64,000 nucleotides of DNA, from the NCBI RefSeq assembly GCF_026151205.1, contig NC_087074.1:20552765-20616764 (forward strand). The letters run 5' to 3'. Below, one piece after another: positions 20,263 through 63,720 of the stretch (position 1 is its first letter; the number at the start of each line of letters is the position of its first letter). This DNA is from Bolinopsis microptera. Taxonomy: Eukaryota; Ctenophora; Tentaculata; Lobata; Bolinopsidae. The translations under genes were made by a program, and so were the position numbers. The notes under the pieces were generated by a model. The model worked only from the letters and a program-made list of their open reading frames with translations, made no database searches and had not been told where the DNA came from.

Positions 20263-20419
20263 ATGGCTTCTGCCAGCACCGCTCCCCTCCCCATTTTCTA
20301 CAACAATGATGTCCACAACTTCTATTTGAAGCAGAAGCAAGAATTCCATTTCACTCAAAAAAGTGATAATGAATTTCTTATGTTTCTACTAGACACCGCA
20401 GTCCGAGTCATATCAATAG
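20263..20419 (+). CDS. Constant exon A: N-terminus of the zinc-finger gene
   Basis: The ATG at 20263 lies in a good initiation context (CTTACCATGG). It encodes 52 residues beginning MASASTAPLPIFYNND and containing FHFTQKSDNEFLMFLLDTAV, a likely helical segment, and ends phase 1 at a strong ATAG/GTAAGT donor. It is not a BTB domain, the usual N-terminus of lola-type genes, and I do not recognise the fold. The donor is followed by three more tandem copies of itself. The membership of A and B in the gene is inferred from strand, proximity and phase. Confidence 0.6.
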
Positions 20420-20605
20420 GTAAGTTTACAACTTAATCTTACATCTGTAATATTACTACATATCAATAGGTAAGTTTACAACTTAATCTTACATCTGTAA
20501 TATTACTACATATCAATAGGTAAGTTTACAACTTAATCTTACATCTGTAATATTACTACATATCAATAGGTAAGTTTACAACTTAATCTTACATCTGTAA
20601 TATTC
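20411..20605 (+). repeat. 50-bp tandem repeat carrying four splice donors
   Basis: Four units start at 20411, 20461, 20511 and 20561, each with ATCAATAGGTAAGTTTAC. The first donor is used in the model. Use of a later one would add an in-frame stop (ACT TAA) straight after the first donor position. Confidence 0.9.
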
Positions 20606-20631
20606 TACGCACGGTGTTAAGCTTAGAGTAG

Positions 20632-20817
20632 CTGCGAATGTATCAGATTACAAGAATCACAATCAGGGTTATAATTACTCAGTTGTTGCCAATTTCAAAC
20701 AGTTCACTCAAAGTTCAATTGTGTTAAAAAGATTAAAAGATCGTCCTAGAGAACATGATAAATACTCCCGTTACTTATTGTTCATTCTCATTCATTACCC
20801 AAACCACTTCACTCGTC
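20632..20817 (+). CDS. Constant exon B (boundaries uncertain)
   Basis: The frame is open from about 20604 to 20910 and looks coding (VSDYKNHNQGYNYSVVANF, LKRLKDRPREHDKYSRYLLF). The proposed boundaries are the acceptor GAGTAG before 20632 and a GTCTCA donor after 20817; they are weak but keep phase 1 at both ends. Exon A could also splice straight to exon C in frame, which would skip this exon. The encoded segment is basic and partly hydrophobic, with no known domain recognised. Confidence 0.45.
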
Positions 20818-20850
20818 GTCTCAGAAACCAATTAACTCCGTTTCCACTCA

Positions 20851-21470
20851 CTGTTACTAACCAACACTCCCTCAGTACAACATCTAGCACCAGTTATAGA
20901 GGCCGTGTCTGACTGTTACTAACCAACACTCCCTCAGTACAACATCTAGCACCAGTTATAGAGGCCGTGTCTGACTGTTACTAACCAACACTCCCTCAGT
21001 TCAACATCTAGCACCCGTGATAGAGGCCGTGTCTCACTGTTACTAACCAACACTCCCTCAGTTCAACATCTAGCACCCGTGATAGAGGCCGTGTCTGATA
21101 ACACTAACCAATACCCCCTCAGTTCAACATTTAGCACCCGTGATAGAGGCCGTGTCTGACTGTTACTAACCAACACTCCCTCAGTACAACATCTAGCACC
21201 AGTTATAGAGGCCGTGTCTGATAACACTAACCAACACTCCCTCAGTTCAACATCTAGCACCCGTGATAGAGGCCGTGTCTGATAACACTAACCAATACCC
21301 CCTCAGTTCAACATTTAGCACCCGTGATAGAGGCCGTGTCTGACTGTTACTAACCAATACCCCCTCAGTTCAACATTTAGCACCCGTGATAGAGGCCGTG
21401 TCTGATAACACTAACCAATACCCCCTCAGTTCAACATTTAGCACCAGTGATAGAGGCCGTGTCTGATGCT
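20851..21470 (+). repeat. 61/62-bp tandem repeat carrying ten complete 3' splice sites
   Basis: Each unit has a branch-point-like ACTAAC, then CAACACTCCCTCAG or CAATACCCCCTCAG, then the first bases of exon C. The ten possible exon starts are 20876, 20938, 21000, 21062, 21123, 21185, 21246, 21307, 21369 and 21430. Two unit types alternate (TGTTACTAAC, 62 bp; ATAACACTAAC, 61 bp). Only the last start stays open into exon C; the others reach a stop within one or two units. Confidence 0.9.
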
Positions 21471-21546
21471 GGGATTGAAGTTGATGATATCGAGGATGAT
21501 GTGTCACCCATACACACCCCCAACAACACTTCCAACATCTCGGCAG
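21430..21546 (+). CDS. Constant exon C: acidic linker
   Basis: A 117-nt exon, phase 1 at both ends, from the tenth tandem acceptor to donor GGCAG/GTAATA. It encodes about 39 residues including LAPVIEAVSDAGIEVDDIED and SPIHTPNNTSN. The acidic, Ser/Thr/Pro-containing composition fits a flexible regulatory region. The downstream intron (21547-21909) holds an AT-rich tandem repeat. Confidence 0.7.
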
Positions 21547-21554
21547 GTAATACA

Positions 21555-21672
21555 AAAACATATCATTAACATAATATATACAAACATATTATTAACATAA
21601 TATATACAAACATATTATTAACATAGTATATACAAGCATATTATTAACATAATATGTACAAACATATAAAAC
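21555..21672. repeat. AT-rich tandem repeat, about 25-bp unit
   Basis: Units of ACATATTATTAACATAATAT with small changes, inside the intron between constant exons C and D. Confidence 0.85.
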
Positions 21673-21909
21673 ATAATATGGCGCCCCACCGTACGTACAG
21701 TTTACATCCCTCTGATTTGTTATGGTTATGTGGTGTGGTTTGCAGTCAGTTTATGGCTTTTTGGTACGTCTCAAGGGTGTTAAAAGGTTGATGTCAGACT
21801 TTTAAATGACTTTTAAATTTATCAATCACGGTTTATTAGCGATGATTATATGGGATACTAATACTGAGTTGATTTAAAAAAGCTTCATTGTAAATGCTAA
21901 TAATTTCAG

Positions 21910-22696
21910 GAGCCATGGATGTTGACTCAGTCGACCCAACCCCATCAGCCTTATCAGCAGAACTAGAACAGATTAACCAGGAGATAACTAACGCTCAGAT
22001 ATCTTCCCAACAACTCTCTCGACAACCCTCCGTATTTACCCGACGACCTTTACCCTTACCCGCTCCAGCACCCATCTCAATTCCCGTATCTGTTCCTGTA
22101 TCCGCCTCGACTTCATCAGAATCCGAACTCATAATGTTACCTATCGCCCAATCCACCGCTATGTTATCCGTCTCCCAGCCGACAGCTATGTTGTCTCTCG
22201 CCCAACCCTCTGCTGTGCATACCCCTTCAGCAAATCGCTCAGACTCAAACCGCTCAGACTCTCTCGCCCCAAACGTGCCTTTAATTCAGCTCCCCAGCTC
22301 GGCACAATCTTCAGAAAACACTACGACCTCCCTTCCCTCCGCCTCTCAGCCCGTAGCTGAGCCCCCAGATGATTCCCTCGCCAACGTCAAAACCGAGCAA
22401 CCAGTACCAGAAGTAATCGAAATAAAAGAGGAAGTGAACGACCTGACAGGGCCCGCTTCCGAATCCTCCGAACTAATATCGCAAGACACTTTAGATCAGC
22501 TCATGTCGTCAATATCAGGGGCTGAAGACAATGTAGGATTACAGAACTTTGTACCCACTGCGACTCCCTCCGGTTTACCTCCCTCGTTCCTCGACCGTGG
22601 TGCCGGTAATCCCTTATCCATGCTTGGTAGTCTCAACTCTGGTGATGGGCCCGGTCCTTCTGGCATTAATGTTCCCAACATATCAGAGAGTATGAT
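21910..22696 (+). CDS. Constant exon D: Pro/Ser-rich regulatory region with SUMO motifs
   Basis: A 787-nt exon between acceptor AATTTCAG and donor GAT/GTAAGT, phase 1 in and phase 2 out. It encodes about 262 low-complexity residues: a short helical stretch (LSAELEQINQEITNAQ), Pro/Val/Ser-rich repeats (PVSVPVSAS; LSVSQPTAM and LSLAQPSAV), and a tail with two classic sumoylation-type sites (VKTE, IKEE) about 15 residues apart. These are features of a transcriptional regulator's activation or repression region, not DNA binding. The intron after it (22697-23045) has nothing recognisable. Confidence 0.85.
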
Positions 22697-23045
22697 GTAA
22701 GTCTTTTAAAATATTTGGGAAAAAACGGGAATAGTTGGAATTCCCATTTGTTATCCATTGAATGTCTCATAATGTTGTTTCACAAGATTTATTCGCTACT
22801 GTAACAGTTACAACACTCCTATTTGCTATCGGTTACTTAGCTCCTTCAACACTAAATTGCACTAACTCTTACAGTTCAATATTTACACACGTAACTTTAT
22901 AGATTTATTCCCGTTATCCAAGAGACAACTTTATGGAGCCCTCTTTTATTTAAATTAATTAAATAAACTAACTTAATTTACAACCGACTTAAGATAAAAC
23001 CCTAGCTACTTCTAGTCTGATTGTCTAATTATCTCGATCTTGCAG

Positions 23046-23104
23046 GAAGAACATAAGTGACGCCGGCCTCAACGTATCCAGCATTAAAGGACAAGCCAAC
23101 CCAA
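23046..23104 (+). CDS. Constant exon E: last shared exon, phase-1 donor for the array
   Basis: A 59-nt exon with acceptor GATCTTGCAG and donor CCAA/GTAAGA. It completes the split codon from exon D and encodes KNISDAGLNVSSIKGQANP, ending on one base (A) of the next codon. This phase is the key to the locus. An exon that adds two bases and then codons stays in frame, and 49 of the 50 zinc-finger exons from 27188 onward can be entered that way. A further small exon at 23187-23232 (acceptor CTTCACTCAG, donor GCT/GTAAGT, phase 1 to 2) is possible but would suit almost none of them. Confidence 0.8.
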
Positions 23105-26100
23105 GTAAGAAACACTTTAGTTACGCAGTTTAGAACCCAATACAAACCACTCATTTAAGCTCCGTATGGGGTTTTTCTTCACTCAGAAAACACGGCCAGA
23201 CATCCTAAGTTTCTCACAACCGGTATTCAGCTGTAAGTTATAAATTAAACTAAGTGGTGCAATAACGAATACTTGTTATCCGATATGGGACATCTCATTT
23301 GTTTGGGGATGCGGTGATCTAGTCTACATGGCATTAACAGTGATACAAATGAAGAAAAGTATCCATTTGCGCTCTACAGTAACGCAAATTGCTCGCTTGA
23401 ACACCAAATACCAGGCCCTCTATTTGAACTGTGCCCATGTGGAACATGTGGAACCTAACATGCACTGAAAACTCTCTAAATACTCTAAATACTGCTCCCC
23501 TTTTCGCATGCACTGAATTACCTCCCTTTCGTGCGGTTTGTGGAACCCCTTGTCTCTTCTCTCGTGAGACTGCTTGAATTAAAAGATAAGATCTCGTGAG
23601 ACAGCATCTCGATAAATGATCTGGCACTTGGCCTAGCACTTGGCCTAGCACTGCTGCAATTAACCTTTTTTGACTAGAGGTTGAAATATTTACCGGGTGC
23701 GAGAGTTGGAGATACTTTTATTAAAGTATTGGGTTCTAGACTAGCTTTATGCGTAGGTTTGAAATATATGCAGTCGAGTCCGCATAATCCGGACAATATG
23801 CAAAGTCGCCTTGAATAAAACACCGTGCCTCTCCCTAATAAATTGTGTGCGGTCAGTGTAAATATTTGAGTGTAGTATGCGAGAGTGAGTGATGGATGGC
23901 GGTAAAATTATTCCGTTAATTTTCTGCGAGCTCTCTCTCTGTCTTGAGAGAGTGAGCGGCTGTCTCGAGAGTCACACCATGTGATGTCTCAACTTTTTGT
24001 GCGGTGTCTCCGTATTGTCACGTGGTGTTCCTATCCTGTCACGTGGTGTCTCAATGTGGTGTCACGTGCTACCTGGGTAACAGGTTTGCGAAGTAGCGTG
24101 GGAGGGTGAGAGTGTGTGTGTGGTGAGGTTAGCAGGGTTAGTGTTGAGAATATAGAGGAATATACGTCCTGTTCTTTGTCATGTAAAATGTACTTAATAT
24201 TGAGTTATATTGAAGACTGCGCCTGATGGCTGGTACACTGGTGGAGGCTCTAATAACAGGTATGTTGTTTGTAATCAGAGGGCCCTGTGTGGAGTTCTCT
24301 AAAGAGTTTACCTGAAGGACAGCTCACTGTAGGAGTGTGGGATATAAAGTACAAACTGTAGGAGTGTGGGATATAAAGTACAAACTGCAATATAATATGT
24401 GGCATAAGTTTCAGAATTTTTGAACATTTGACTTTTTCCAGCTAATCGTAGGATGAATAAATGAAGTCTAAACCATGCTGAAATGTATTAACTTTTGAGG
24501 GCGTAAGGGCATTGAACGGGGGGGGGGGGGGGGGGGGGGGGGGGCATAAATACCAGTAAAACTGCTAGTTACCATAGTTACACTGCTAGTTACCATGGTA
24601 ACAACCCCCCCCCCCCCCCATTGAACTCTGACATAGTCCCCTCTGGTTGTGTATGTTACAGTTGTGTTTTCTTAGTATCCTAAAAGTTGTTATCTGAAAT
24701 ATGGGAAGGGATGGGGTCTGAACGATTCTAGAACAAATTACATATTAAGCTGAAAATAAGATAAGTTTAGAACTAACAACCAGCATACTTTGACATGGTA
24801 ATTGTGACCCATCATCAGCTGGCCTAGATTCTACCCTTTAAGCAAACTACTTTTCTTGGAACAACGAACAGCGCTCATCTCAGCTAATCTATCTATTTCA
24901 CACAGTTGTGGGGCAGTAGAGAGTCAACAAGAAGTTGCATATATACATATAGCGGACACAACTTGCCATAGTCATAATATGGTTAATTAGTATAAATTAT
25001 AGTTTGTAACTAACTTAAGTTAATTAGTATAAATTATAGTTTGTAACTAACTTAAGTCAGTGTCAGTGAAGTCATGTCAAGGTCAGGGAGGGTTTAGTTC
25101 TGTCCTAATTATATGTCAGTTATCCTACTTGTCTCAGTATAGTCTGTCCTTCTATGTCTGTACGATTATGACCTAAAGTATAATCTACCAGTTAATCATT
25201 ATTAGATGGTGATGTCAGATAAAATTCGCATTCGAAGTTTTTAAAAATATAGCGTCCTTCTTACTTCAATGTAAGTTGTCTATTAGAAATGTCAGGCACC
25301 AATTTCATGTGACAACACTATAAAATGTGTGTTATTAATATGCACTAGAAATATGCGCTACAAGTATGCAGTACAAATGTGTAATACAATTATGTAGAAG
25401 TAGAAATGTCCCAAACATTTTAATAATGTGAGTAATGTTCAAAGTTTCCTAATATGGCGTTTCTGCGACTACAAAAAACAAGCTTCATTTATCATAATCT
25501 CCGCTGAGAAAGAAAGCTTGTTCTCCTTAGCGCACACAGCACAGCAATAATTATAAACTTTGTACATTACTCATTATAACATGTACATAATTAATTACAA
25601 CACCAACATGTAAGTGCATATATTTAAGTGTATGTTTGTCACTTGTACGTGCTTTAAACACTGCGAAGAAGAACGGAGAGACGGAGGGAGAAACTGTGGA
25701 AGAGGTGCGTGTAAGTTAATGTCCTGTGTAAGTTCTGTAAACAAGGCTAGGTAAGGGTTTGTTCGTGTGTGAGAAAGTGTGAGAATGAGGTTGGAAATTT
25801 GCCAAATTTGAGGGGGAGATCTTGCTTGTGTACTAATTAATATACTGACTGGTCGTCATTTAAATTGAGAGAACATAGAACATGGATATGATGGGTAGAA
25901 GTCAAAAACAATGCCTGAACGCTTTGTAAACTAAATGTGAATCCTTTGAACGATCAGTGATACAAGCAGGATTTCCCTATTATAGAGTGATTAAAAACTC
26001 GACTGCAATTATTTCAGATTTACGCATCACCAATAGTTCTGTTTACAGGCCAAACTTTGCCTAGATTGTTAGATTTATTTTCGATGATATACCGAAACTT

Positions 26101-27187
26101 CGATAGAACCCCTTTTGAATGAAAGTACAGTTCTTCCTTCTTTCTATGGATCAAAATTTGGTCTGTTATCTTCAGAACGTATTGGTATAACTAGGATATT
26201 GTGTATAATTAACGTTTGCAGTCGATTGCCAACACTGTTATTTCTTTCAAACTCCTGCTCGCTTTTGGATTTAAACCCGAACTTTAGGGATCGTGAAGTT
26301 GTCAATCGATTGGAGGCGTCCTTTTCTTAATATGCATTATTGCCGAGTTTGTACAGAGTGAAAAGGGCTCAATTTCTGTTACTATTTTATATTCTACACA
26401 ACACAAAGTCGTTCACTCTGTGCTTACAACGGCCGCGTTAAATGATTTTACTTTACCCCCAAATTCGCCTACAAAAGCTTGTGAAAACTTTGAGATTAGT
26501 AATTCTAGAAAGGCCTGGCCAATGAATGCAATGATGGCTTGTAAGTAAGGTTAAGGAATGAAATTAGCAGAGGAGAATCTGCAAACCTGCCTTGCATCGC
26601 CCATTCTAAGACTAAGTAGAACCGCATAGGGCCAAAATTTGGAAAATTTTGTCTCCGGGGATATTTTCGCTTTGGCTTGGGCATCGTTTTTCGGGGTACT
26701 TTGGCTTGATTTTCAGGAGCAGTTGATGATTAGCATTTGTAGCGATGCAGTATATTTGTTGTTTTCTTGTTCTGTAAATGTAGATAATTTTCATTGCGTG
26801 GTTACTGCTTCCTTGGTAGGACGCTGGTCGTAGGCCCAACTAGAACTCAGTTCGATTGATCATTAACATAAAATAGATAGTGCAACAAAAGAACGTAGCC
26901 AAACGACTAGCAAATTTGGCTTATTTTCTCCGGTTAAACCCAATCCTAGCTAACAAAGTATTTGCGCGCAGTGCGCGGCTTTTCTTTGTCTAATGTGGCG
27001 GCAAGTTTACCCAGCGGTTCTAGAACTTTCTGTACTGAGTGAGAGAGAGAGGGAGAGAGAGAGAGAAGTGGGTCACACACACATTCACCACTAATGAGAG
27101 GGTTACATTTCCTAGCTGGCAGGCGGAGCCACTAATTAGGGCGACCCTCAGTTCGCCTCAACATTCCTACCCTCTTTTTCTCCGCAG
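23105..27187 (+). other. Long intron before the zinc-finger exon array
   Basis: No zinc-finger exon was seen. It contains a G28 run (24517-24544), a C14 run (about 24606-24619), a GTTACCATGGTAAC palindrome (near 24590), two 28-bp direct copies (24331-24388), two 37-bp direct copies (24984-25055) and a GA-rich tract (27040-27066). Several short open frames lack splice support. A candidate alternative first exon lies at 24226-24259. Confidence 0.6.
24226..24259 (+). CDS. Candidate alternative first coding exon
   Basis: An ATG followed by MAGTLVEALIT, ending phase 1 at CAG/GTATGT. This is the phase the array exons require, so it could supply a short alternative N-terminus from an internal promoter. 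Phase alone would match one time in three by chance. Confidence 0.25.
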
Positions 27188-27318
27188 AGGGTAAAACTAC
27201 TGGGGACGTTCGTTGCCACATATGTCAAAGAATCTTCAAAACGAATAGGAATGTGGCCAACAACTTAAAACGGCATATGAAAAAGATTCACCCGAAGTCC
27301 CTCACGCTGAAAAGTTAA
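27188..27318 (+). CDS. Terminal exon T1: single zinc finger
   Basis: Acceptor TTCTCCGCAG, phase 1, stop TAA. It encodes one C2H2 finger, CHIC then a 16-residue loop then RHMKKIH, and ends 9 residues later, so the second finger usual in this array is absent. It is the first exon of the array. The next 560 bases hold no recognised feature. Confidence 0.8.
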
Positions 27319-27880
27319 AGTGTGTGGAGCTAAGTTTGTTAGCAATACGATATTCGACGAGCATGTTTGCCATTATGTACATTTGCTCGTGAATTCGAAA
27401 ACAATACATAAGTATGTTGCCAAATAAATTATTCTACACTATTGCAACTAAAATGTCCGTCAAACATTCCGAACCAAAACCATCTTCGTATATAAGTTAA
27501 TTAAAAAGATAACATACGTGGAAATTACTGTAATTCCAATTAAGAAACAACTACCTTGCTCGGTAGCACTATGGGATCCGATTTAATAAATTACTGATCT
27601 TTAATATCAATAATTAAATAACATCTTTAAATCATTCTGGCAATCTTCACAATACATTGATTTATTGATTTTAGTACATATTAGAGAGTAGTATTACCTG
27701 TTCATGAATCATGTGTATTGAACATGTTCGATTCAGCAACAACACAGCGTGTGCCCTGTAGCATTCCTAGGAGGCGTACCAAAATTAGATCAATTAATAC
27801 CTCTGAAATCATCCCTATCTGCAATACCCGAAGTCCCTACACAGCGCTCATCTCCCGTGTTAAGACTCCTCCACCTTTAG

Positions 27881-28011
27881 GTGGTGAACGTCCTGTGATA
27901 TATTGCCCGGCCTGCCAGAGAGTTTACTCCAGCAAGACTAATTACCGTCGCCACTACAAGGAGGTTCATCTCAACTGGAAGAGGGCTAAAACGACAAAGA
28001 AACACTTTTAA
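27881..28011 (+). CDS. Terminal exon T2: single zinc finger
   Basis: Acceptor CTCCACCTTTAG. One finger (CPACQRVY...RRHYKEVH), followed by a basic tail KRAKTTKKHF and stop where the second finger would start. It may be a truncated pair. The open frame extends upstream of the acceptor to 27718 but that part is intronic in this model. Confidence 0.75.
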
Positions 28012-28347
28012 GAACACATCTCCGCAAGCAATCCTCGCTTTTAAGAACCATTAATATCCTGATTCTTAGCTTGTGTTATTATTGCTATTCTGTTAAAGTT
28101 CGGCATCAGTTTGCCTCTTAAACAACATTTTTCATGCACAACCGAGTAATAAGAAATTTTAAAATTTTAAAACTTTGATGGCGAATCATGATGAATCTAG
28201 TAGTCAACCCTGCGGTTATAATCGGCTTGTTTCGAATATTTGACGGTAATTTGACTCAAGTAGTTTCTGAAACTAGCCACGTTCTGGTTTAAGAGATAAA
28301 CAAACTAAATTTAGCACCAACAATCTTCTCGAACCCTTCGTTTCTAG

Positions 28348-28550
28348 GTTTGACATGCCACATCTGCGAGAAAAGGTTAGCCTCGGTAACAGTTCTCAAG
28401 TACCACATTCTGGAAGTCCATGAGAGGTACAGAAACTTCAAATGCTCGCTGTGCAGTGGTAACTTTACCCGTAAAACTAGTCTGGTTCGTCACTGGAAGA
28501 AAGTACATCCAGATACCTATAAAGCTGTCAGAGGACAAATTCCGTGCTAG
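28348..28550 (+). CDS. Terminal exon T3: zinc-finger pair
   Basis: Acceptor TCGTTTCTAG. Finger 1 CHICEKRL...YHILEVH and finger 2 CSLCSGNF...RHWKKVH, both C-x2-C-x12-H-x4-H, joined by ERYRNFK. Confidence 0.88.
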
Positions 28551-28840
28551 TGATCACTTTGTTGTCTTGATGAACGAGTGAGTGAGGTTGTGTCTTTTGT
28601 CTTCACCGTAATTTGATAACTAGATTGAGGACATTTTTAATTGAAAAGTTACGTTGTTTAAAAGTTACGTGACATTTAAATTATAGTAACATATTAAAGA
28701 TTAATGGTTTAAATTATTGTTTAATTAAAGTTGAGAGCAGCTGTTCAGTAGATCTAGTTAGTGGATAATCTTGTCTCCTTCCTTCGTCTGTAACCTAGCT
28801 ACTGTTGCTATAGTAACCGTCCCATTACACAACCCCCCAG

Positions 28841-29079
28841 TTTCAGCGCCTGCTAGCCAGGAGTGCCCCGTATGCAAGCGTTCCATAAAGCGGCTCCAAG
28901 ATCTAAAGCGCCACATACGCACGGTGCATAACAGAGAGCGGCGCTTCTCATGCCCACACTGCCCCAAGACCTTTACCCGCAGCGACATCCGTAAGAAGCA
29001 CATCCGACTCGTGCATAATTCCGCAAGCACCTCCGCAAGCATTCCCTCCGCAAGCAGTAACGTTGCACTATTTCAGTAG
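28841..29079 (+). CDS. Terminal exon T4: zinc-finger pair
   Basis: Two in-frame acceptors six bases apart (CCCCCCAG before 28841, GTTTCAG before 28847). Fingers CPVCKRSI...RHIRTVH and CPHCPKTF...KHIRLVH, then a Ser/Ala-rich tail. The frame runs through the acceptor of T5 and stops at TAG 29077-29079, the first three bases of T5. Confidence 0.87.
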
Positions 29080-32786: not shown

Positions 32787-33022
32787 TGATGTCTCGTCCA
32801 CTGTGCCCGATTTGTCGTAAAGCGTTCAGCAGCAAAACCAACATGAAATTACACGTGGATACAGTGCACGGTGCTAACAAGTTCGTGTGTCCGGTGTGCC
32901 CCACTTCCTTCACACGCAAGTTTAGTTTGCAACGTCACATTTACACTGCTCACAGCGAGGGAAACGTTCCGGCCAAGTCGGAGTGGAACTTCAGTGAGGA
33001 CGTTACGGACTTCCATTCTTAG
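32787..33022 (+). CDS. Terminal exon T11: zinc-finger pair
   Basis: Strong acceptor CTGTTTCTTTCAG. Fingers CPICRKAF...LHVDTVH and CPVCPTSF...RHIYTAH with a GANKFV linker, then a polar tail. It resembles T12 closely in finger 2. The following 480 bases hold paired GTTACCATGG motifs (about 33426-33473). Confidence 0.88.
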
Positions 33023-33684: not shown

Positions 33685-33688
33685 TAAA

Positions 33689-33818: not shown

Positions 33819-34260
33819 TGTACTACAACATTAAACCTCAGTGGTAGTAGTATTAATCAGCGGACAGAAAGGAAATTATCTTATGAACCGTATATTAAGG
33901 ATGAAGTTGAGTTGAATAAAAAACAGTCTTACTATTGATTATACTTTTCTTTAATCCTTATACCCCCGGCAATTATGTCCATTATTCAAAATCTTCGTCA
34001 TCTTATTATATTTCGGATGCATTTCATTTGTTTATTATTCATTCACCGGGGTCTTCCTTTTTCTTTACGGACCATATATTATCTTTCGTGGGTCGGCTAT
34101 CTCGGATATATTCTGAATTATTTCTTTTATTCTTAACTGGTAAAACGTGTCTTATCGTAGAAACAAATTGGCACCGAGCTAATAGCACAAAATCGAAAGT
34201 ATGTAGTTAAAAAAGCAAGGAACAATTTTAATCAATAACACGAGTAAACAACAGTTTCAG

Positions 34261-34583
34261 TAAAACCGCCAGTCTGGGGATATTGTCCGTTTTGCAACAA
34301 ATCCACCTACAGTTCCCTGGAAATGGGGCGGCACCTCGACACAGCACACGGCTCCCGGCTCCCGGATACGGCACTTCCCGGCACCCAGCAGAGCGAAAAT
34401 ACCCCTTACTCTCATCTTATTGGCAACAGATTCACAGATAGTCGTGACCATGGTGCGGGGGCAGCTAGGTTCGAGTGTCCCAGGTGTAAGAAGTGTTTCA
34501 GCCGAAAGTGGACGCTTCATCGACACATGTTGACGACCGAGGGGAAATGCTACAAAATCTTTACAGCCTATGAAAATATCTAA
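34261..34583 (+). CDS. Terminal exon T13: two fingers separated by a long linker
   Basis: Acceptor ACAACAGTTTCAG. Finger 1 CPFCNKST...RHLDTAH and finger 2 CPRCKKCF...RHMLTTEGKC are separated by about 40 residues instead of the usual 7. It is one of few exons with a long spacer. Confidence 0.85.
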
Positions 34584-37559: not shown

Positions 37560-38492
37560 ATATCGACAGTTGTAACTACTGTACCGGAGTACCTATAAAG
37601 GTTGAACAAGTTGAAGTTGAAACTTCAGCTCATGTCTTGAAACGGTCGGAGACCGCGGCCGCGGCACCACCACCTGAAAAGGACCTTGCTACGTCCAAGC
37701 GACAACGGCTCCCTACCGCCTCACAAACACCGCAAACGAAACAAGCCCTGTGAGACAAACGAAGTGTCTCACTTTTCATGCAGCTTCTGTGATGTAAACT
37801 TCCGGTCTCACGAACTGCTCCGGAGACACCTCATGGACGATAAAGCCCACGCTTCCAAAACCTCAGCTTCTTACGACCAGCTCTCTGTCTTTAGTTGCCA
37901 AGTGTGCCACATTAGTTTTCTGTCCGAAGCTTGTCTCCGGGAACACAACGAGGCTATTCACAGGGTTAAAATTAAGCGAGTTTTTCATTGCAGCGTTTGT
38001 CCCAGCTGGGGTGACCAAAAGGTCACGTTTCAAACCCTTCAAGGATTGAGGAAACACACGATGAGTCAGCATTACAACAGTGCTACCCACGCTCACATGT
38101 GCAAGTGTGGGATCTGCTGCCTCAAGTTTGACTCTGTCCCCTCCCTGGAAGTGCATCTGAAGAGCACGAGACACCATGACTACTACGAGGGTGTGGGTCC
38201 CTACTCCTGCAACATCTGCCCCGCGAAGAAGTGCGCTTCCTTCTCCTCCGCCTACCTGCTCAAACTGCACTTTAAACAAGCGCACAGTCTACAGTGGCAC
38301 GCTGTACCGCCCCCGCAGATACCGCCCACTGCCCATACTGTAACCATGGTAACTAGTATCCCTGCTCCAGCCTGTTCAGTTAAGAAGGCACTTAAGATTA
38401 CCTGTATATTTTGTAAAGCTGAGTTTGGGTCCAGGGAACTGTTGAAAGAGCACGAGCGAACCCATCTGCTCGGTCTACCCAAGGACTCTTGA
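37560..38492 (+). CDS. Terminal exon T16: six-finger exon with a frame break
   Basis: Acceptor TTATTATTTTCAG leads in phase 1 into DSCNYCTGVPIKVEQVEVE and an Ala/Pro-rich stretch, then a stop at 37753. The long frame from 37641 to 38492 is one frame over and encodes a basic segment (HKHRKRNKP) and six C2H2-type fingers: CSFC, CQVC, CSVC, CGIC, CNIC and CIFC. No in-phase acceptor was found for that frame, so I infer a single-base insertion between 37641 and 37753, real or from assembly. AATAAA at 38614-38619. Confidence 0.7.
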
Positions 38493-53342: not shown

Positions 53343-53434
53343 CAACCTAGTAACCAGTTAGTAACCAGTAAGTAACCTAGTAACATAGTAACCAGCTAGT
53401 AACCTAATAACTGTTATGCCCCTATCCTATTTAG

Positions 53435-54876: not shown

Positions 54877-54938
54877 GTGGTAACTAGGTGGTAACTAGGT
54901 GGTAACTAGGTAACACTAAGTGTATCTCCTTGTTTCAG

Positions 54939-55180
54939 CTATGATAGTGACTAAAGACTGCCCAGTTTGCGGGAAGTCCTTCCGAGCAAGTAACCTGAAG
55001 AGGCATCACCGCACAGTTCACCTCAAAATATCCAACTTTTCTTGTCAGTTTTGTTGGAAGAGGTTTACACAGAGTAATAGTCTGAAGCGACATCTGGCGA
55101 AGTGCCACCTGGCAAAGTGCCAACTGAGGGACCGTTATGTTGGGAATGTGGAACTCCAGTTGAGGATGGAGGAGGATTAG
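54939..55180 (+). CDS. Terminal exon T40: zinc-finger pair, short first loop
   Basis: Acceptor CTCCTTGTTTCAG. Finger 1 CPVCGKSF with an 11-residue loop then HHRTVH; finger 2 CQFCWKRF...RHLAKCH. A repeated LAKC and an acidic tail follow. 55181-55735 holds nothing recognised. Confidence 0.87.
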
Positions 55181-55735
55181 GTCCTTTTAAATCAACATTA
55201 TACCTTCTGTCACATCCTCGATAAATGTACAGGGTGGGCCAAAAGTCAGTACCCATACGTTGGGTCTTATACCTCCGCCGTCTTTTATATTTGAGAGTTG
55301 TTGCTTTGCAGATGGCATACTGTACCTACTTGTTCGAGGATTCCGTCGCCAAAATTTGAAAATTCGAATAATTCGATAAATGTATTTTATTGTAGTTTTG
55401 AGAATAGTTAACACAGCTTTTTTAAACTATTGCAATATCTGATCTGCGTGGCTTCGTGTAGTTGAATTCTAGTTTATTTTTTTGATAACTGTTTAAGCAG
55501 CTGGTATTTATTTTGCTTACATACTGAAAATACTATCATTATTTCTCACGCTGGCCCGGAATTCAGTTAGATCATCAATCGTATCTGGAATAAAAGCTTT
55601 GTTACTTAATCAAAATTCAGACGGATAATGTACCAGCGGATGTAAAATAAATATAACTAAATATAAAATTGATCAATACAATGAATATAAAAGTTCAAGG
55701 CACATGCACATGTACTATGTAGTCCTAAATTTCAG

Positions 55736-55926
55736 GTATAATACAGTGCCCCACGTGTCAGAAAGTATTTGGTGGTTGCAACCCAAAGTACGTGTACGAG
55801 CGGCACTACCGGACAGTTCATCTGAGGATCAAAGCGTTCACCTGTGGTTACTGCAAGAAGAAGTTTACTCAGGATAGCAACAGGAAGAGACATAGCGATG
55901 TGTGTAGCATGAGGAGGGGCACGTGA
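55736..55926 (+). CDS. Terminal exon T41: C2H2 plus C2HC pair
   Basis: Acceptor CCTAAATTTCAG. Fingers CPTCQKVF (15-residue loop) ERHYRTVH and CGYCKKKF...RHSDVC. The stop lies at the start of a 21-bp repeat. Confidence 0.87.
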
Positions 55927-56085
55927 CTTTCTCAGTTTGCCACGTGACACTCGCAGTTTGCCACGTGACACTCGCAGTTTGCCACGTGACACTCGCAGTT
56001 TGCCACGTGACTTTCTCAGTTTGCCACGTGACAGTCGCAGTTTGCCACGTGACACTCGCAGTTTGCCACGTGACTACATCATCTG
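55920..56085. repeat. 21-bp tandem repeat with a CACGTG site in each unit, about 8 copies
   Basis: Units of CACGTGACACTCGCAGTTTG plus one or two bases. CACGTG is the E-box core bound by bHLH factors. It lies in the presumed 3' UTR of T41. Confidence 0.92.
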
Positions 56086-56206
56086 GCTAGTTTATGATTC
56101 CGTCTTTCATTTCGTGCATATAGTTCAGAATTACGTGGGTATCTGAAATTTTATAGTAAAATAACTTTCCGGGATCCTTTTCTAATATAAAAGAATTCAG
56201 TGTATA

Positions 56207-56882
56207 CAGTGGGGTGACATATGTTTTCGTCACTTCTTATAATGACAATACAAACAGCGTTAAACTAACAATTTTCATTGAACCATAACTCCGCTTCCGG
56301 ACCACCGATTTACAAAATTCAAAAATGGGTGTTTAGAGAAAATTCTGAACTTTTCTCGGACAGTAGAAATTAAGTTCATTCGTGCTTCAGAAGAGACTGG
56401 CAGGCCCATAAATAAGGGGTTTGATCACGATAATGATACTATTTATGAAGGAGCACATGTTTTAATAGCAAGCGACGAACTTTTCTCTACTTCAATATTA
56501 CCATGAATTTTAAAACGGAATATCTTTGTACTGCATCGTTCGATTTCGATAAAATTGATAAGGTAACAAGACCAAATGTTTCTCAGTTGATTAAAATAAA
56601 TACTGTTAGAGTTGTTAATCTTCAGCCAGAGATAGCATAAGTTTACCATGCTAAGTTGGATATTGTGAACACTTCCCTATTCCTCAATTTTTAGTGGTGT
56701 CATAGATATTACATAGCCACAAAATTTACTACAGATACGCCAAAGGGTCTGGGCCTTGTACTAGACAAATTCTCCAGACTCGTGATTACACTCACTGTTA
56801 ACAATATCACGTGACGTGCATGCAAACTCGCGCGCTAAAATGCGCGCATTCAGAAGTGACGAAAACATATGTCACCCCACTG
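56207..56882. mobile_element. Non-autonomous Tc1/mariner-like element
   Basis: A 676-bp element with inverted ends CAGTGGGGTGACATATGTTT continuing to about 30 bp, flanked by TA on both sides (56205-56206, 56883-56884). The interior has no transposase. Its right end stops 21 bases before the T42 lead exon. Confidence 0.88.
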
Positions 56883-56903
56883 TATCAACTATCTGCGTTT
56901 CAG

Positions 56904-57033
56904 TATCCAGCCGGAATAGCATAGATGTATTGGGAAATTTAAAATATCTCTTTCTCAGCGAATCAGGAGGGTCGTTGGGCAAACGTGAGGATTCCACCTC
57001 CTCACATTACCTCTGGTCGCTACACTTCAAGGA
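56904..57033 (+). CDS. T42 lead exon: phase adapter without zinc fingers
   Basis: Acceptor ATCTGCGTTTCAG, phase 1 entry. It encodes about 42 residues (NSIDVLGNLKYLFLSE, then a polar stretch) with no finger, and can leave in phase 2 at a GTAAAG donor after 57033. The following T42 finger exon needs phase 2 entry, so the two fit together. If the donor is not used, the frame stops at 57035-57037. Confidence 0.6.
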
Positions 57034-57048
57034 GTAAAGACTATCCCA

Positions 57049-57140
57049 TCCCACCTAGTTACCACCTAGTTACCACCTAGTTACCACCTAGTTACCACCT
57101 AGTTACCACCTAGTTACCTCCTAGTTACCGCCTAGTTACC
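57049..57140. repeat. ACCTAGTTACC tandem repeat flanked by a 57-bp duplication
   Basis: About eight 11-bp units. The block CCTCACATTACCTCTGGTCG and onward occurs on both sides (57000-57056, 57142-57199), so the donor region of the T42 lead exon is duplicated. Confidence 0.88.
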
Positions 57141-57212
57141 ACGTCCTCACATTACCTCTGGTCGCTACACTTCAAGGAGTAAAGACTATCCCATCCCACC
57201 TGCCAACTCCAG

Positions 57213-57420
57213 CTGCAGGGAAGATTCAATACATTGTCCAGTGTGTGGGGACCCTTTCGGCGGAGGTAGAAAGGCAATTAGGAACCATAACTATAAGCAG
57301 CATTACCGCACTGTCCATTTGAGAATCAAAGAAAAAAGTTGTAGTTATTGCTACAAGAAGTTTGCTAAGGATTTTAATAGGAAACGGCACGAGAGAGTGT
57401 GTTCTACAAGGCCTCGCTAA
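57213..57420 (+). CDS. Terminal exon T42: C2H2 plus C2HC pair, phase-2 entry
   Basis: Acceptor GCCAACTCCAG (or CTGCAG six bases on, same phase). Finger 1 CPVCGDPF with an 18-residue loop then HYRTVH; finger 2 CSYCYKKF...RHERVC. No phase-1 acceptor was found for this frame. That makes it the only array exon that cannot join exon E directly. Confidence 0.78.
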
Positions 57421-58101
57421 TCGGGAAGAAGAATTGAGATTTTCTAAACTTAAGTTGTTTTAGAAATCGTGCTACCCCTCCTTCAGCAGAGCCGGAGAAA
57501 AGTTCCTGGACACGACGTAGCAGAGAAGTTTATACCCAGCCTCCCACTACAAGGACTCAATATTCTGTACAGCCAGTGCGCAGTGGACGGATCCTCTTCG
57601 GAACACCAGCCGTGTGCAACATAATATGAAGGTCCTGAATCAGGACTTATGGTTTACTCTCCTGATTACTGTATAGAAAAAGGTGTCTTACGATGCCAAG
57701 TTGAAGAAACGTATAACGTTCCCAGTTACGTTTGGAAGAATAGAAGTTCCAGCTTCCGAACCACAACCACTTGCAATCACCTTTACAATTTGAAGTATAA
57801 TAATAACTTTTGAATTAGTATTTGGGCTAGACTTTAAGATCACTGCTGTGCTCAAAGTATCGCGAGAATTGGCATATTGTCCGGTTTAGGCACATTTCAT
57901 CGCTATCTCAAATATCGAGGGCTGGTATTGTCCACAAATCTGTAAATAGCTCACCCTATACCTCTAGATGTTACTCCGTCCCGACTGTACCCCTGGAATA
58001 TGCTCAGATGAGATCAAAATACTTCAGAACTAGAACTATCGTTAACTGATCACCTAACCTTCTCAATTATAATCAATATTCTCTACACAAAATACCCCCA
58101 G
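57421..58101 (+). other. Intron with a possible non-finger exon
   Basis: After TACCCCTCCTTCAG (start about 57490) a phase-1 frame runs about 50 codons (EPEKSSWTRRSREVYTQPPT...) to a stop, with no finger. It could be a degenerate or non-zinc-finger terminal exon. Nothing else recognised. Confidence 0.35.
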
Positions 58102-58406
58102 CACTGTCCCTGACCCAGCCCTACTCCTGGAACGTGCGGTTCAGGCACGCAGCTACCCCGGATCCTGTCGAGAACCCCGGCTCTGAAAACATCAGCTGTC
58201 CTGACTGTGGCAGAGTCTTTACCGGTAGACACCGGGTACCTGTCTTTAAACGACACTACAGAACTGTACACCTCAAGATTCAGCTGTATTCTTGTGATTT
58301 CTGTCAGAGGAAGTTTGCTCATGATAATTCGAGGAAAAGGCACGCGAAGATTTGTCGGTTAAAGATGATTGAGATGAAACTTAGCAGTTGTGCGGGACAA
58401 GAATAA
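58102..58406 (+). CDS. Terminal exon T43: C2H2 plus C2HC pair
   Basis: Acceptor AAATACCCCCAG; in-phase GGCACGCAG gives a later start. Fingers CPDCGRVF (15-residue loop) KRHYRTVH and CDFCQRKF...RHAKIC. The stop codon is part of an AATAAA at 58402-58407. Confidence 0.84.
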
Positions 58407-58646
58407 AGTAATCGTTTATTTTCGGAACATAAACTTGTTAATTATTGGCCATTATTGGGTAAAAGAGAAGAACTGTTTGCCCGCCCTGGGTTCATTTTAT
58501 TCAATCATTATTGGTACAATTTTCATCAAAATAATTTTTTTGGGCAAATGCAGCATATTATGCAAGATCAAAACTTTTGTAGATCACTTGATTTCACTTT
58601 TAATTTCACTTCAATCCTGTCTGTTTTATTTATTGTCTGTTTTCAG

Positions 58647-58873
58647 AACCAACCGACACCCAAACTACATGTCCGGTCTGTCTCCGGATCTTTAAGGGAA
58701 AGTACCAAGCCCTGATATTCCGTCGGCACTACAACGCCATCCATCTCAAAATAGAGAAATACTCGTGTGAATTCTGTGCTAAGAAGTTTGCTCACTACAA
58801 CCAGCGGAAGAGACATTATAAGAACTGCGCTAATATGACCAAGTTAATGGCGGCCCAGCAGTTCGGGTTGTAG
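58647..58873 (+). CDS. Terminal exon T44: C2H2 plus C2HC pair
   Basis: Acceptor ATTGTCTGTTTTCAG. Fingers CPVCLRIF (15-residue loop) RRHYNAIH and CEFCAKKF...RHYKNC. The longer frames at 58390-58715 that overlap its start are in other phases. Confidence 0.86.
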
Positions 58874-59110
58874 AGAAATCAAGGAGTGATGATAGCTACT
58901 TTGCTGGAATTTATATTTTTATCTGTTGATTAAGAAGCTGTTGTTATGTACAGTAATTTCATGGAATGAATTTTACGATAGTAATTTGACCAGTCTATGG
59001 TAGTTGAAATGAGCGTTATAATCGAACGGTACTTTAAGTTTTAAAACGCTGATGCTGAACTAACAGTTCTATCTCAATCTCTATATCAGCTTTTAGTTCA
59101 CATATTCCAG

Positions 59111-59328
59111 GCGGCGCAGCGCGGGTTCTAGTGGACACCATAGTGGACACCATAGTTTGTCCTATCTGTGATAGACCCTTCACGGGCAAAAACAGAGATT
59201 GGATCTTTAAGAGACACTACAAAGCTATCCACCTAAAGTTGGAGCGATACTCTTGTGAGATCTGCGGAATGAAGTTTAATTATTATAATCAGAGAAAACG
59301 GCATATTAAGAAATGTATGTATCGGTGA
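59111..59328 (+). CDS. Terminal exon T45: C2H2 plus C2HC pair
   Basis: Acceptor CACATATTCCAG; GTTCTAG before 59132 is also in phase. A 12-bp duplication gives VDTIVDTIV before finger 1, CPICDRPF (15-residue loop) KRHYKAIH. Finger 2 is CEICGMKF...RHIKKC. 59329-59895 holds a duplicated CATTTGGACCCCCTCTAGCT only. Confidence 0.87.
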
Positions 59329-59895
59329 TGGACCTTGAGAGCTGTTTTAAAGTCGAGACAAATCACAGATTAAATATTCTGGCTGAAACGTGTTAGTTAA
59401 CGTTCACATGGGACATGTTAAGTGAGCCAGAATATGCCCATTTGGACCCCCTCTAGCTCCCCCATTTGGACCCCCTCTAGCTCTCCTTCCGTAAGCAGCA
59501 TTAACAATTGTTATCGTGTAGAAATAATGTTAGGTAATATGTGAACCATCCTTAACGTTACATTGCGGAGCTCGTATTATATATTTACAATTTACACGTC
59601 TAGTACGACAATACGTACTTGTTCTTTAATGAATACAGAATGGACAGCTTGTTTAGGCTGGGACAAGGATAAGAGTTGTGTTAACCGCCGTCGCTTGATT
59701 TACGAGATTGAATTTTGTATCAGCTAAATTATTTTTAATTTTGACAATAAGTTTCAAATACTAACATGTATTTTTGTGGCACTGGCATGTTCCCGCTTAT
59801 TTTGAACTTGAAATTGCAACGACCACCCAGATCTTTAACACCACCGACAATACCTCTTCATTCCCTTTCTCTCTACCTGTTCATAACAATTTCAG

Positions 59896-60098
59896 ATCCG
59901 GAGAAACTTCCTATAGACTGTGCAACCTGTGCGCAGCTACTCCAACAAGGGAGATGGAGATATAACCGTCACTACCGCGCTGTTCATCTCAAGATTAAGA
60001 ACTTTATGTGTCAGATTTGTTTGAAGAGGTTCTCTACCAAGCAGGTTCTAGACTCTCACGTGTACTCCAAGAACTGTGAGCCTAGAGAAATGTGCTAG
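59896..60098 (+). CDS. Terminal exon T46: C2H2 plus C2HC pair
   Basis: Acceptor CATAACAATTTCAG. Fingers CATCAQLL...NRHYRAVH (13-residue loop) and CQICLKRF...SHVYSKNC. It groups with T47-T49 by the GRW/GKW-YNRHY motif. The coding end merges into a large minisatellite. Confidence 0.86.
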
Positions 60099-61182
60099 AG
60101 AACTGTGCTAGAGAACTGTGCTAGAGAACTGTGAGCCTAGAGAACTGTGCTAGAGAACTGTGCTAGAGAACTGTGAGCCTAGAGAACTGTGCTAGAGAAC
60201 TGTGAGCCTAGAGAACTGTGAGCCTAGAGAACTGTGCTGGAGAACTGTGAGCCTAGAGAACTGTAGCTGTGCTAGAGAACTGTGCTAGAGAACTGTGCTG
60301 GAGAACTGTGCTAGAGAACTGTGCTAGAGAACTGTGAGCCTAGAGAACTGTGAGCCTAGAGAACTGTGCTAGAGAACTGTGAGCCTAGAGAACTGTGCTA
60401 GAGAACTGTGAGCCTAGAGAACTGTGAGCCTAGAGAACTGTGAGCCTAGAGAACTGTGAGCCAAGAGAACTGTGCTAGAGAACTGTGCTAGAGAACTGTG
60501 AGCCTAGAGAACTGTGCTAGAGAACTGTGAGCCTAGAGAACTGTGCTAGAGAACTGTGAGCCTAGAGAACTGTGCTAGAGAACTGTGCTAGAGAACTGTG
60601 AGCCTAGAGAACTGTGCTAGAGAACTGTGAGCCTGGAGAACTGTGAGCCTAGAGAACTGTGAGCCTAGAGAACTGTGCTAGAGAACTGTGAGCCTAGAGA
60701 ACTGTGAGCCTAGAGAACTGTGCTAGAGAACTGTGAGCCTAGAGAACTGTGCTAGAGAACTGTGCTAGAGAACTGTGAGCCTAGAGAACTGTGAGCCTAG
60801 AGAACTGTGCTAGAGAACTGTGCTAGAGAACTGTGCTGGAGAACTGTGAGCCTAGAGAACTGTGCTAGAGAACTGTGAGCCTAGAGAACTGTGAGCCTAG
60901 AGAACTGTGAGCCTAGAGAACTGTGCTAGAGAACTGTGCTAGAGAACTGTGCTAGAGAACTGTGAGCCTAGAGAACTGTGAGCCTAGAGAACTGTGAGCC
61001 TAGAGAACTGTGAGCCTAGAGAACTGTGCTAGAGAACTGTGAGCCTAGAGAACTGTGCTAGAGAACTGTGAGCCTAGAGAACTGTGAGCCTAGAGAACTG
61101 TGAGCCTAGAGAACTGTGAGCCTAGAGAACTGTGCTAGAGAACTGTGAGCCTAGAGAACTGTGCTAGAGAACTGTGCTAGAA
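60060..61182. repeat. Minisatellite of two mixed units, 13 and 16 bp, about 75 copies
   Basis: GAGAACTGTGCTA and GAGAACTGTGAGCCTA alternate irregularly. It grew from the last codons and stop of T46. Confidence 0.95.
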
Positions 61183-61424
61183 TCTCTGGAGACTGACACT
61201 GCTGAAAGTCGTCGGGAGAACATTTGAAATTGGTATTTTCTGACATAGTTTAATTGTAGTAGCTGTGAATTGAAACTAGATCCTTCGCTCAATTTTCAAG
61301 CCACCCGTTTCACAGTTTCGTAGACTTTGACTTCGTTCCTAAAATGTAAATTGTTTCCAAAATAATCGTACCCAAACTTTTGATGCTCCCAAACTTATCT
61401 CTCCAAACTGATCTTGTTTCTCAG

Positions 61425-61639
61425 CACATCTGGAAATCAAAACCCCTCTGGAATGTGAAACATGTGTGAGACTGAGGACTAGTGGTAGAGGAAAGTGGGC
61501 CTACAACCGTCATTACAACGCTGTTCACCTAAAGTTACGGAGCTTCCCCTGTCACATCTGCTGCAGAAAGTTCTCCACTAAGCAGAAGCTGGAGAGCCAC
61601 GTGGCGACCCTCCGGTGTATCAGGAACACTACCATATAA
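61425..61639 (+). CDS. Terminal exon T47: C2H2 plus C2HC pair
   Basis: Acceptor TCTTGTTTCTCAG. Finger 1 CETCVRLR (15-residue loop) NRHYNAVH; finger 2 CHICCRKF...SHVATLRC. No early methionine. The stop lies in a GTTACCATAGTAACACTACC repeat. Confidence 0.87.
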
Positions 61640-61675
61640 GGTAGTGTTACCATAGTAACACTACCTTATATGGTA

Positions 61676-61960
61676 GTGTTAGAGACTGAGGACTAGTGGT
61701 AGAGGAAAGTGGGCCTACAACCGTCATTACAACGCTGTTCACCTAAAGTTACGGAGCTTCCCCTGTCACATCTGCTGCAGAAAGTTCTCCACTAAGCAGA
61801 AGCTAGAGAGCCACGTGGCGACCCTCCGGTGTATCAGGAACACTACCATATAAGGTAGTGTTACCATAGTAACACTACCATATAAGGTAGTGTTACTATA
61901 GTAACACTACCAACTCACGTGGCCACCCTCCGGTGTATCAGGATTCAGGAAAAAGGCTAA
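61676..61960 (+). pseudogene. Two partial copies of T47
   Basis: 61680-61851 repeats T47 from the RTSGRG codons to the stop, with one base changed, but lacks the acceptor and first Cys pair. 61916-61960 repeats only the last part (VATLRCIR) and has a different end. They are separated by TAAGGTAGTGTTACCATAGT repeats. Confidence 0.85.
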
Positions 61961-62233
61961 ATTTCGTTTCGATGAACAGTCGCTGTAGAGAACGGAAGTG
62001 AGATGTTGTTTAGATGTTAACCGCACGTTTAGTGAACTTAAAAGCATGTAAAAGTTTACCAGGAATATGATGAGCATGGTTTAACGATTTAGTCTATTCT
62101 CTAAAATGTCAGCTGTCAATCTTTATTTTATTAAACTTTTTAGTTCACTTTCCTTCCCACCTAACCTAGTTTCTACCCCACTATATGATACATTATATCT
62201 CCACTAGAGTCTAGACAGCTCCCCATGTTTCAG

Positions 62234-62487
62234 ACAACTACCCTATAGAATGTGAGACCTGCGCCAGACTAATTCAACGAGGGACCTGGTTCTATCGCCG
62301 TCACTACAAATCCGTCCACCTCCGCCTTAAAGAGTTCACATGTCAGGATTGCAACAAAATGTTTGCTGAAAGTGGAACCCTGAAGCGACACAAGACAAGG
62401 TGTCTTGCAATGATGAACAGGAAGACGCGCTCCTATGCTCATCTTACCCTGGATCCCAGGATCTTCCCTCCATCTGACGACTTCTGA
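62234..62487 (+). CDS. Terminal exon T48: C2H2 plus C2HC pair
   Basis: Acceptor CCCCATGTTTCAG. Fingers CETCARLI...RRHYKSVH (13-residue loop) and CQDCNKMF...RHKTRC, then a tail of about 30 residues. No early methionine. Confidence 0.87.
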
Positions 62488-62772
62488 GACTCGTCTAATT
62501 GAGTTATTTTGTAGACTGGGCTGTGTAACCCCGTTATCTTATTCTCAGTAGACTTTCCATCCCCACTCAGATAAAGAGATTCATGTAGTTCTTAGCAATT
62601 TACTTTTTTATTTGAATTCGATTTTCTCCTTCAATTTTTACCGCCTGATCTTATTACTACTTTATTTTCTATCGCTTTCTTAACAGATATAAAAGTGTAA
62701 CTCACAGTTAAACTGAATGGTATGCGGGAAATATTTTTGGCAACTAGACAAATTTCACCAGTAATGTCGTCA

Positions 62773-62922
62773 GTTCACATATTACGTAATCATTTTATGG
62801 AACATTTTGACCCCCCCCCCCTCCGTAATCAGTTTTACACATAGCTATTGTGTCAAAATTACACTAGCGTAATCATTCGGAAACCCCCCCCCCCCTCAGC
62901 TGATTACGTAATATATGTGAAC
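62773..62922. mobile_element. Short TIR element with C-tracts
   Basis: The inverted ends share TGATTACGTAATA-ATGTGAAC. The 150-bp body contains two runs of 13-14 C. Nothing else is recognised in 62488-63082. Confidence 0.65.
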
Positions 62923-63082
62923 GACCCCTTATGAACCAAAGGAGTGAAATTTCCGTAATATCATAATCATGATTACAAAATAAGTCGAGGATCAGATACC
63001 TTACATTCCATAAATGTTATCCTAGCCTGGCACCCTGTCAATTTTCCTATTGACACGTGGTCTTTAAGTCACGTGCTTTCAG

Positions 63083-63336
63083 GACAATCCCTAGTGTACA
63101 AGCGAGTGAGCGTGACCTACGAAGGCTGCAAAGTGTGTGACAGACTCAAAGATAAACGAGGTCAATGGAACCGCCACTTCAAGACCGTCCATCTGAAGAT
63201 CAAGAACTATCAGTGTCCGTTCTGTAACCGGAAGTTTGGTGAAAGTGCTACAGTTAAAAAACATATGCGAGTATGCAAAGAGAAACAGGAGAACGTTAAA
63301 TGGGAGGAGGAGGAAGGAGGAGCTTATAAGCCTTGA
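63083..63336 (+). CDS. Terminal exon T49: C2H2 plus C2HC pair
   Basis: Acceptor CACGTGCTTTCAG; AATCCCTAG nine bases on is also in phase. Fingers CKVCDRLK...RHFKTVH and CPFCNRKF...KHMRVC, then an acidic tail (WEEEEGG). AATAAA at 63386-63391. Confidence 0.88.
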
Positions 63337-63502
63337 TCTGTAATACTTGTGTTTTAAAACCTTAAGTTATGTTCCAAAATTTATTAATAAAATTGCTCCA
63401 CGATTGGCCGTGCACGAGTGTGACTCGTTGCAATTAGGTATGCAAAATTCGTCGTACTCCTTACATTACACCAATTATTAGTCAGACACATCTACATTTC
63501 AG

Positions 63503-63720
63503 TGGACGATAAAGTAATTGTGTGTCCAGTGTGCCACAAAGAGTTTACGGGCAGGCGGGAGGGCAACTTCCGTAGACATATTAGAACGGTTCATCTCCGT
63601 ATAAAGGACTTTGCCTGTCGTTACTGTAACCGTCCGTTTACCCTGAAACACCACCGTATCCGTCATGAACAAACGTGTAAAGAAGCTGAGAAGCTTATTA
63701 AGCTAGGCCCTGAGTCATGA
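63503..63720 (+). CDS. Terminal exon T50: C2H2 plus C2HC pair
   Basis: Acceptor TCTACATTTCAG. Fingers CPVCHKEF (14-residue loop) RRHIRTVH and CRYCNRPF...RHEQTC. It is the last exon in view. Its coding end seeds a tandem repeat that runs off the window. Confidence 0.88.

Follow-up and report, generated by a model that had tools for sequence, protein, structure and literature searches.

In Drosophila, the gene mod(mdg4) supplies one common N-terminus with many alternative tails, some of them joined in trans. The Drosophila gene lola, as described in PMC1947980, has common 5' exons followed by many alternative 3' exons, mostly encoding C2H2 or C2HC fingers, and its at least 20 isoforms are produced by both cis- and trans-splicing. 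Dscam1 is the familiar case of a large tandem array of alternative exons that generates isoform diversity from a single locus (PMC1397879), while the shortened Dscam genes of Chelicerata and the clustered protocadherins combine tandem alternative cassettes with constant exons, according to PMC4835542. From ctenophores, PMC12221973 presents CTEP1 and CTEP2 as ctenophore-specific C2H2 loop-anchor proteins of Mnemiopsis. Here, we analyze a locus of the ctenophore Bolinopsis microptera, LOC134813369, which is annotated as an "uncharacterized protein" and lies partly within a stretch of 64,000 bases (hereafter the window; bases 20552765-20616764 of contig C3). The source genome comprises 264.65 megabases (Mb) in 232 contigs, and the published assembly is given as 265 Mb in 13 chromosomes in PMC11797021. 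LOC134813369 is very probably a single transcription-factor gene, in which constant exons B-E are followed by about 100 alternative 3'-terminal exons encoding DNA-binding domains.

The locus is best read as a set of lola-like alternative terminal exons attached to an unrelated N-terminus, at about five times larger scale. As in lola, several alternative 3'-terminal exons stand behind one donor (five such joins were seen), and the tails are C2H2/C2HC finger pairs. It differs from lola in that its N-terminal module belongs to no known family and has no BTB match, in its phylum (Ctenophora), in its approximately 100 terminal exons as opposed to about 20, in that some of these encode helix-turn-helix domains, and in that the genome has another giant locus besides this one. 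Because BTB is absent, LOC134813369 is not classed as a member of the lola or BTB zinc-finger (BTB-ZF) group. The arrangement of a single N-terminus with many tails is shared with mod(mdg4), whereas the tails of that gene are mostly of the FLYWCH type, its N-terminus is BTB and its array is smaller. In contrast to Dscam1, whose alternative exons are internal, mutually exclusive and part of a surface receptor, the exons of LOC134813369 are terminal, carry stops and encode DNA-binding domains; no docking or selector element was found there by testing for enriched 6-8-mers upstream of the acceptors, which returned mainly A/T-rich words. The shortened Dscam genes and protocadherins differ in that their variable cassettes lie at the 5' side, each with its own promoter according to PMC4835542, whereas in LOC134813369 it is the 3' side that varies. 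CTEP1 and CTEP2 share with it the character of ctenophore-restricted C2H2 proteins, a likeness that extends to their description in PMC12221973 only. Among the top-ranked titles returned for several queries, a literature search by title found nothing on this locus. To our knowledge, no array so far described reaches about 100 terminal exons.

The direct evidence for this organization consists of five joins between exon E and units of the array. The constant protein encoded by exons B-E matches LOC134813369 at 100%, and four of its annotated isoforms, X15 (P0001), X8 (P0003), X6 (P0004) and X5 (P0005), have exons B-E in common and each possess a distinct array exon. In the coordinates of the window, which are also used for the array beyond it, and on the plus strand, the tail of X15 maps to a terminal exon at 32787-33022 (76 of 76 compared residues), that of X5 to 34255-34583 (107 of 107) and that of X8 to 58102-58406 (99 of 99), with zero mismatches; the residue at either end of each stretch was left out of the comparison. 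The tail of X6, also free of mismatches, consists of an adapter exon at 153020-153124 and a terminal exon at 153334-153548, the exact ends of these pieces having been read by eye; the adapter serves the last unit of the array, and X6 skips about 130 kilobases (kb) together with the remaining units. All four mapped isoforms end at their array exon, which, together with the stop that closes each unit frame, marks the units as terminal rather than as internal exons followed by common ones. The protein clusters represented by X15, X8, X6 and X5 contain 27, 1, 1 and 4 member sequences, respectively, and, among two candidates, the only relative of the X8 tail was X8 itself. The fifth join comes from another collection, in which a contig of 1496 bases (P0002) connects the constant part to unit 65849 exactly at the acceptor predicted by our script; as this contig could not accommodate the 46 kb of genome that it would otherwise span, it must be spliced. 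A first-pass annotation, made from the sequence alone, had proposed a lola-like gene in which one donor, after position 23104, is joined to several array exons. The isoforms of one gene with common exons B-E and differing array exons, together with the further join in P0002, support this proposal.

The constant part opens with exon B (20263-20419; all constant exons are on the plus strand), which contains the start codon, a conserved helical N-terminal module and a phase-1 donor; it is present in P0001-P0005, and an in-frame stop at 20239 lies 24 bases upstream of its start codon. Exon C (21430-21546) begins VQHLAPVIEAVSDAG and matches P0001 and P0003-P0005. Exon D (21910-22696), present in P0001 and with a relative in proteins from other sources (P0012-P0015), encodes a long low-complexity linker with a VKTEQPVPEVIEIKEE motif. 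Exon E (23046-23104) encodes MKNISDAGLNVSSIKGQANP and had been correctly delimited at first pass, with its phase-1 donor after 23104 and an identical junction in P0001-P0005. Joined together, exons B-E amount to 1120 bases, that is, 373 residues plus one extra base, A, and therefore the next exon has to enter in phase 1. The first ~65 residues of the constant part are conserved, whereas the remainder is of low complexity with a conserved IKEE-like motif; in an alignment of eight family proteins, the invariant positions include Y-x-KQK-x-EFHF, FLLDTA, RVISIVQHLAP and EAVS. Pfam scans detected no family at cut-off in the constant protein, and no BTB in it or in seven family N-termini, which agrees with the non-BTB N-terminus suggested earlier, and the N-terminal module had no PDB sequence match at E (expect value) <=10. 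Its structure is predicted with low confidence (mean predicted local distance difference test score, pLDDT, 46.9) as two helices at residues 15-27 and 35-66 in blocks of 52-80; in a fold search of the PDB, none of 196 matches reached E<=0.001, and the best 50 of the 196 were zinc fingers.

The array itself extends over 27.2-153.5 kb (~126,000 bases) on the plus strand and, by profile search at E<1e-4, contains 113 open reading frames (ORFs) with a finger-pair match, of which 103 are complete pairs. The median distance between units is 761 bases, and every unit frame terminates in a stop codon. The portion within the window (27188-63720) accounts for 49 finger-pair ORFs, 46 of them complete and one (unit 61704) a truncated repeat; 63.7 kb marks the end of the window and not of the array, which continues to 153548. 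At the same threshold, no antisense finger-pair ORF was present across the array, and finger pairs were missing from the 45 readable kb upstream of the window, from its opening 27 kb and from the 50 kb that follow the array. Because the profile derives from units of the array itself, detection with it is circular, and it is informative for the comparison of strands and flanks. A strict pattern, C-x2-4-C-x12-H-x3-5-H, matched 51 times on the plus strand of the window and once on the minus strand. Two window units fall outside the profile cut: unit 34284, which is used by X5, and a long plus-strand ORF of about five single fingers (37641-38492), which is without a good phase-1 acceptor and whose use is uncertain. 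The roughly 50 plus-strand units counted at first pass in the window are thus confirmed, a figure that understates by more than half an array that runs on past the window. One unit outside the window (66863-67194) encodes a helix-turn-helix-like domain and likewise has a phase-1 acceptor. A raw regular-expression grouping had given 121 groups, 96 of them in phase 1, with at least two junk groups (95795 and 100396), and the profile-based count was preferred.

The units also agree in splice phase. When every AG site downstream of the last in-frame stop and ahead of the first Cys was scored with a generic, self-made weight matrix, the best acceptor was in phase 1 in 87 of the 103 complete pairs over the array and in 38 of 46 in the window. 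The corresponding rate among matched random ORFs was 28.5% and 28.2% in the flanks and, within the array, 29.9% for the minus strand and 33.7% for the plus strand, the latter set including the units. The entry phase fitting exon E that had been proposed for the window units thus exceeds controls of 28-34%; a binomial comparison of the excess against 40% gives p=2e-20, a value that is descriptive because the units are related. The array acceptors commonly read TTTCAG, and T occupies position -4 in 60% of the 100 phase-1 acceptors scoring above -4, although this position is unweighted except for an AG penalty. An in-frame ATG ahead of the first Cys is missing from 79 of the 103 complete pairs and present in 24. 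The early remark that units often lack an early methionine is therefore sound, and the same count argues against units with ATG exons of their own and sets the array apart from the clustered protocadherins, whose variable exons each have a start codon.

Comparison among close unit pairs suggests that these have been maintained. The ratio of nonsynonymous to synonymous differences per site (pN/pS) lies at 0.16-0.38 in each of the 18 unit pairs with an identity of 60% or more; synonymous divergence (dS) has reached saturation in 13 of them, and in the other five the ratio of nonsynonymous divergence to dS (dN/dS) is 0.11-0.21. These ratios point to purifying selection among close pairs, and because pN/pS is low in every one of them and dS saturated in 13, we judge these units to be old and kept. 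The DNA-contact residues differ among the units: of the 103 complete pairs, 100 could be parsed, and in 99 of these the eight helix contact residues of the two fingers, which we take to be positions -1, 2, 3 and 6 of each, form a distinct set. The contact positions are variable, some non-contact positions are equally so, and positive selection is not claimed. In finger 1, 12 residues separate C and H in 46 units and 15 in 39, while the last ligand of finger 2 is C in 64 and H in 36 of the parsed units, making the tails C2H2/C2HC pairs.

A second, paralogous locus in the B. microptera genome, on another chromosome, appears, from its exon order and phase, to be built on the same plan. This second giant array occupies 10738883-10849200 on the minus strand of contig C10. 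At about 10849 kb, it has exons B, C, an apparently split D, and E, the last of which closes in phase 1 with ...GSTNP plus A. Behind them come terminal exons of the helix-turn-helix type, which match Pfam CCDC106 (below cut-off) and HTH_7, and then finger pairs; the exon borders, and the phase for three of four helix-turn-helix exons, were read by eye. Between 10738883 and 10839167, two genome searches, each taken to its best 150 candidates, yielded at least 86 finger places, counted as distinct when their starts were separated by more than 150 bases; every one lies on the minus strand, and at least two contain a stop. In one 10 kb stretch, the best acceptor was in phase 1 in 13 of 16 rows, corresponding to 11 of 14 distinct exons. 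Four finger units of this array (10797919-10799804, minus strand) recur at 13884036-13885950 on the plus strand of contig C7 with equal scores and in inverse order; the C7 copies may be a copied fragment of the C10 array or a matter of assembly. The N-terminal module was met only in ctenophores and unnamed sources, and in this genome at five clear and two weak loci. Exon B has three clear paralogues on C10 and one on C5, along with a weak one on C5 (E 4e-4) and another on C13 (E 0.01). LOC134821797, at 11.55 Mb on C10, is a smaller relative with three finger places among the matches listed and has a counterpart in Mnemiopsis (P0010, P0011). P0008, a protein from another source, has the family N-terminus followed by a SIX domain and a homeodomain, so that further DNA-binding folds may also occur behind the module.

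In the proposed mechanism, the phase-1 donor of exon E would be joined in each transcript to one of about 100 terminal exons that each bring a separate acceptor and stop codon and encode a zinc-finger pair or, in rare cases, a helix-turn-helix, such that every transcript would couple the constant N-terminus to a different DNA-binding end. The choice would be made mainly in cis, by competition among the terminal acceptors and their polyadenylation (poly(A)) sites, and the N-terminal module would form oligomers or recruit a partner. Most of the ~100 units are probably used, and the family would give cell types or regulatory sites differing DNA-binding specificities.

Several observations weigh against this interpretation. 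Joins were seen for five of about 113 units, four of them from annotated models, and 10 of the 113 units are not complete pairs, some being plainly broken, such as 86542/86638, with a stop between the fingers. A higher-scoring acceptor in another phase exists in 16 of the 103 complete pairs, and a usable acceptor in phase 1 is missing from units 57235, 100115 and 141066; the first of these is a complete finger pair (57136-57420, plus strand) whose best phase-1 acceptor scores -6.1, its use being uncertain or dependent on an adapter exon. One of the 16, unit 58197, scores better in another phase, yet X8 uses its phase-1 site at 58102. A search for adapter exons missed even the known adapter of X6 and is hence uninformative for other units, including unit 57235, which we take to be the T42 for which a private adapter had been proposed at first pass. 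Poly(A) hexamers show no clear enrichment behind the unit stops: one occurs within 500 bases in 50 of 103, whereas random places gave 41 +/- 5 and came up to the observed count in 25 of 500 draws, with 33 against 28 within 300 bases and 21 against 16 within 150. The k-mer comparison upstream of the acceptors likewise gave no shared intronic element able to guide the choice, and no gene for the C10 array turned up among the annotated proteins.

Among the alternatives, the one that survives best holds that internal promoters drive the downstream units, whose transcripts are spliced to exon E in trans. Spliced-leader trans-splicing is reported as common in ctenophores (PMC8527503), lola isoforms arise in both ways (PMC1947980), and the bypass of about 130 kb and of the other units by X6 would be readily accommodated; however, no sequence feature demands it, and we regard it as unlikely, though a contender to be taken seriously. 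Trans-splicing of separately started 3' exons may still contribute to a gene that works mainly in cis. A graveyard, in which few units are used and the others are relics of exon duplication, would account for the incomplete pairs and the small number of joins, but the 103 complete pairs in open frames, and the low pN/pS of every close pair with dS saturated in most, mean that old copies were kept, and leave this account very improbable. Slightly less credible still is the view that the units are small zinc-finger genes in their own right, clustered in tandem and perhaps forming a leader-resolved operon, which an annotation pipeline chained to one upstream gene: ctenophore gene clusters with a common short 5' leader exon are reported in PMC8527503 and 24 units do have an in-frame ATG, but the missing ATG of the majority and the prevalence of phase 1 speak against it, the common part has 1120 coding bases as opposed to a leader of 35-48 bases, P0002 is an independent spliced contig, and two 12-base Hormiphora leader strings are absent from 254 kb, where only the leader's 8-base core occurs, nine times, with the proviso that the Bolinopsis leader may differ.

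If the single-gene reading holds, the lola strategy of one N-terminus with many DNA-binding tails recurs in a different phylum, at about five times the scale, at two loci and with a module of no known family. One gene could in principle make about 100 DNA-binding proteins, one donor selecting among about 100 acceptors over 130 kb would pose the splicing question in an extreme form, and comparisons based on one isoform per gene would miss such a locus. On a broader view, for and against which we find the balance even, ctenophores would have independently evolved a transcription-factor "factory" of two giant loci with about 200 swappable ends of more than one fold, which would confer different DNA specificities on cell types (perhaps neurons) or chromatin-loop anchors.

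Some features of the surrounding sequence complete the description. Within the array, finger-pattern matches at 131.3-137.5 kb (a 15-base repeat), 89.9-91.0 kb (a 43-base repeat) and 50.4-50.7 kb were discarded as simple repeats; the 15-base repeat, which imitates finger patterns, fills six kilobases. Tandem repeats on the plus strand multiply two of the splice sites, the donor of exon B and the acceptor of exon C: a 50-base repeat in four copies (20409-20608), every copy of which holds a copy of the donor, and a 62-base repeat in about ten copies (20850-21466), which contains the acceptor copies and whose final copy opens the exon in use. Entry at an early copy of the exon C acceptor would introduce a stop. 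The 5000 bases immediately preceding the window are given as N, which conceals the promoter region and any more distant 5' exon lying there. Upstream of LOC134813369, the window carries at 9037-14460 the ORFs of a non-LTR (long terminal repeat) retrotransposon, with parts that we take to be a PHD-like finger, an SGNH-like part, an endonuclease and a reverse transcriptase.

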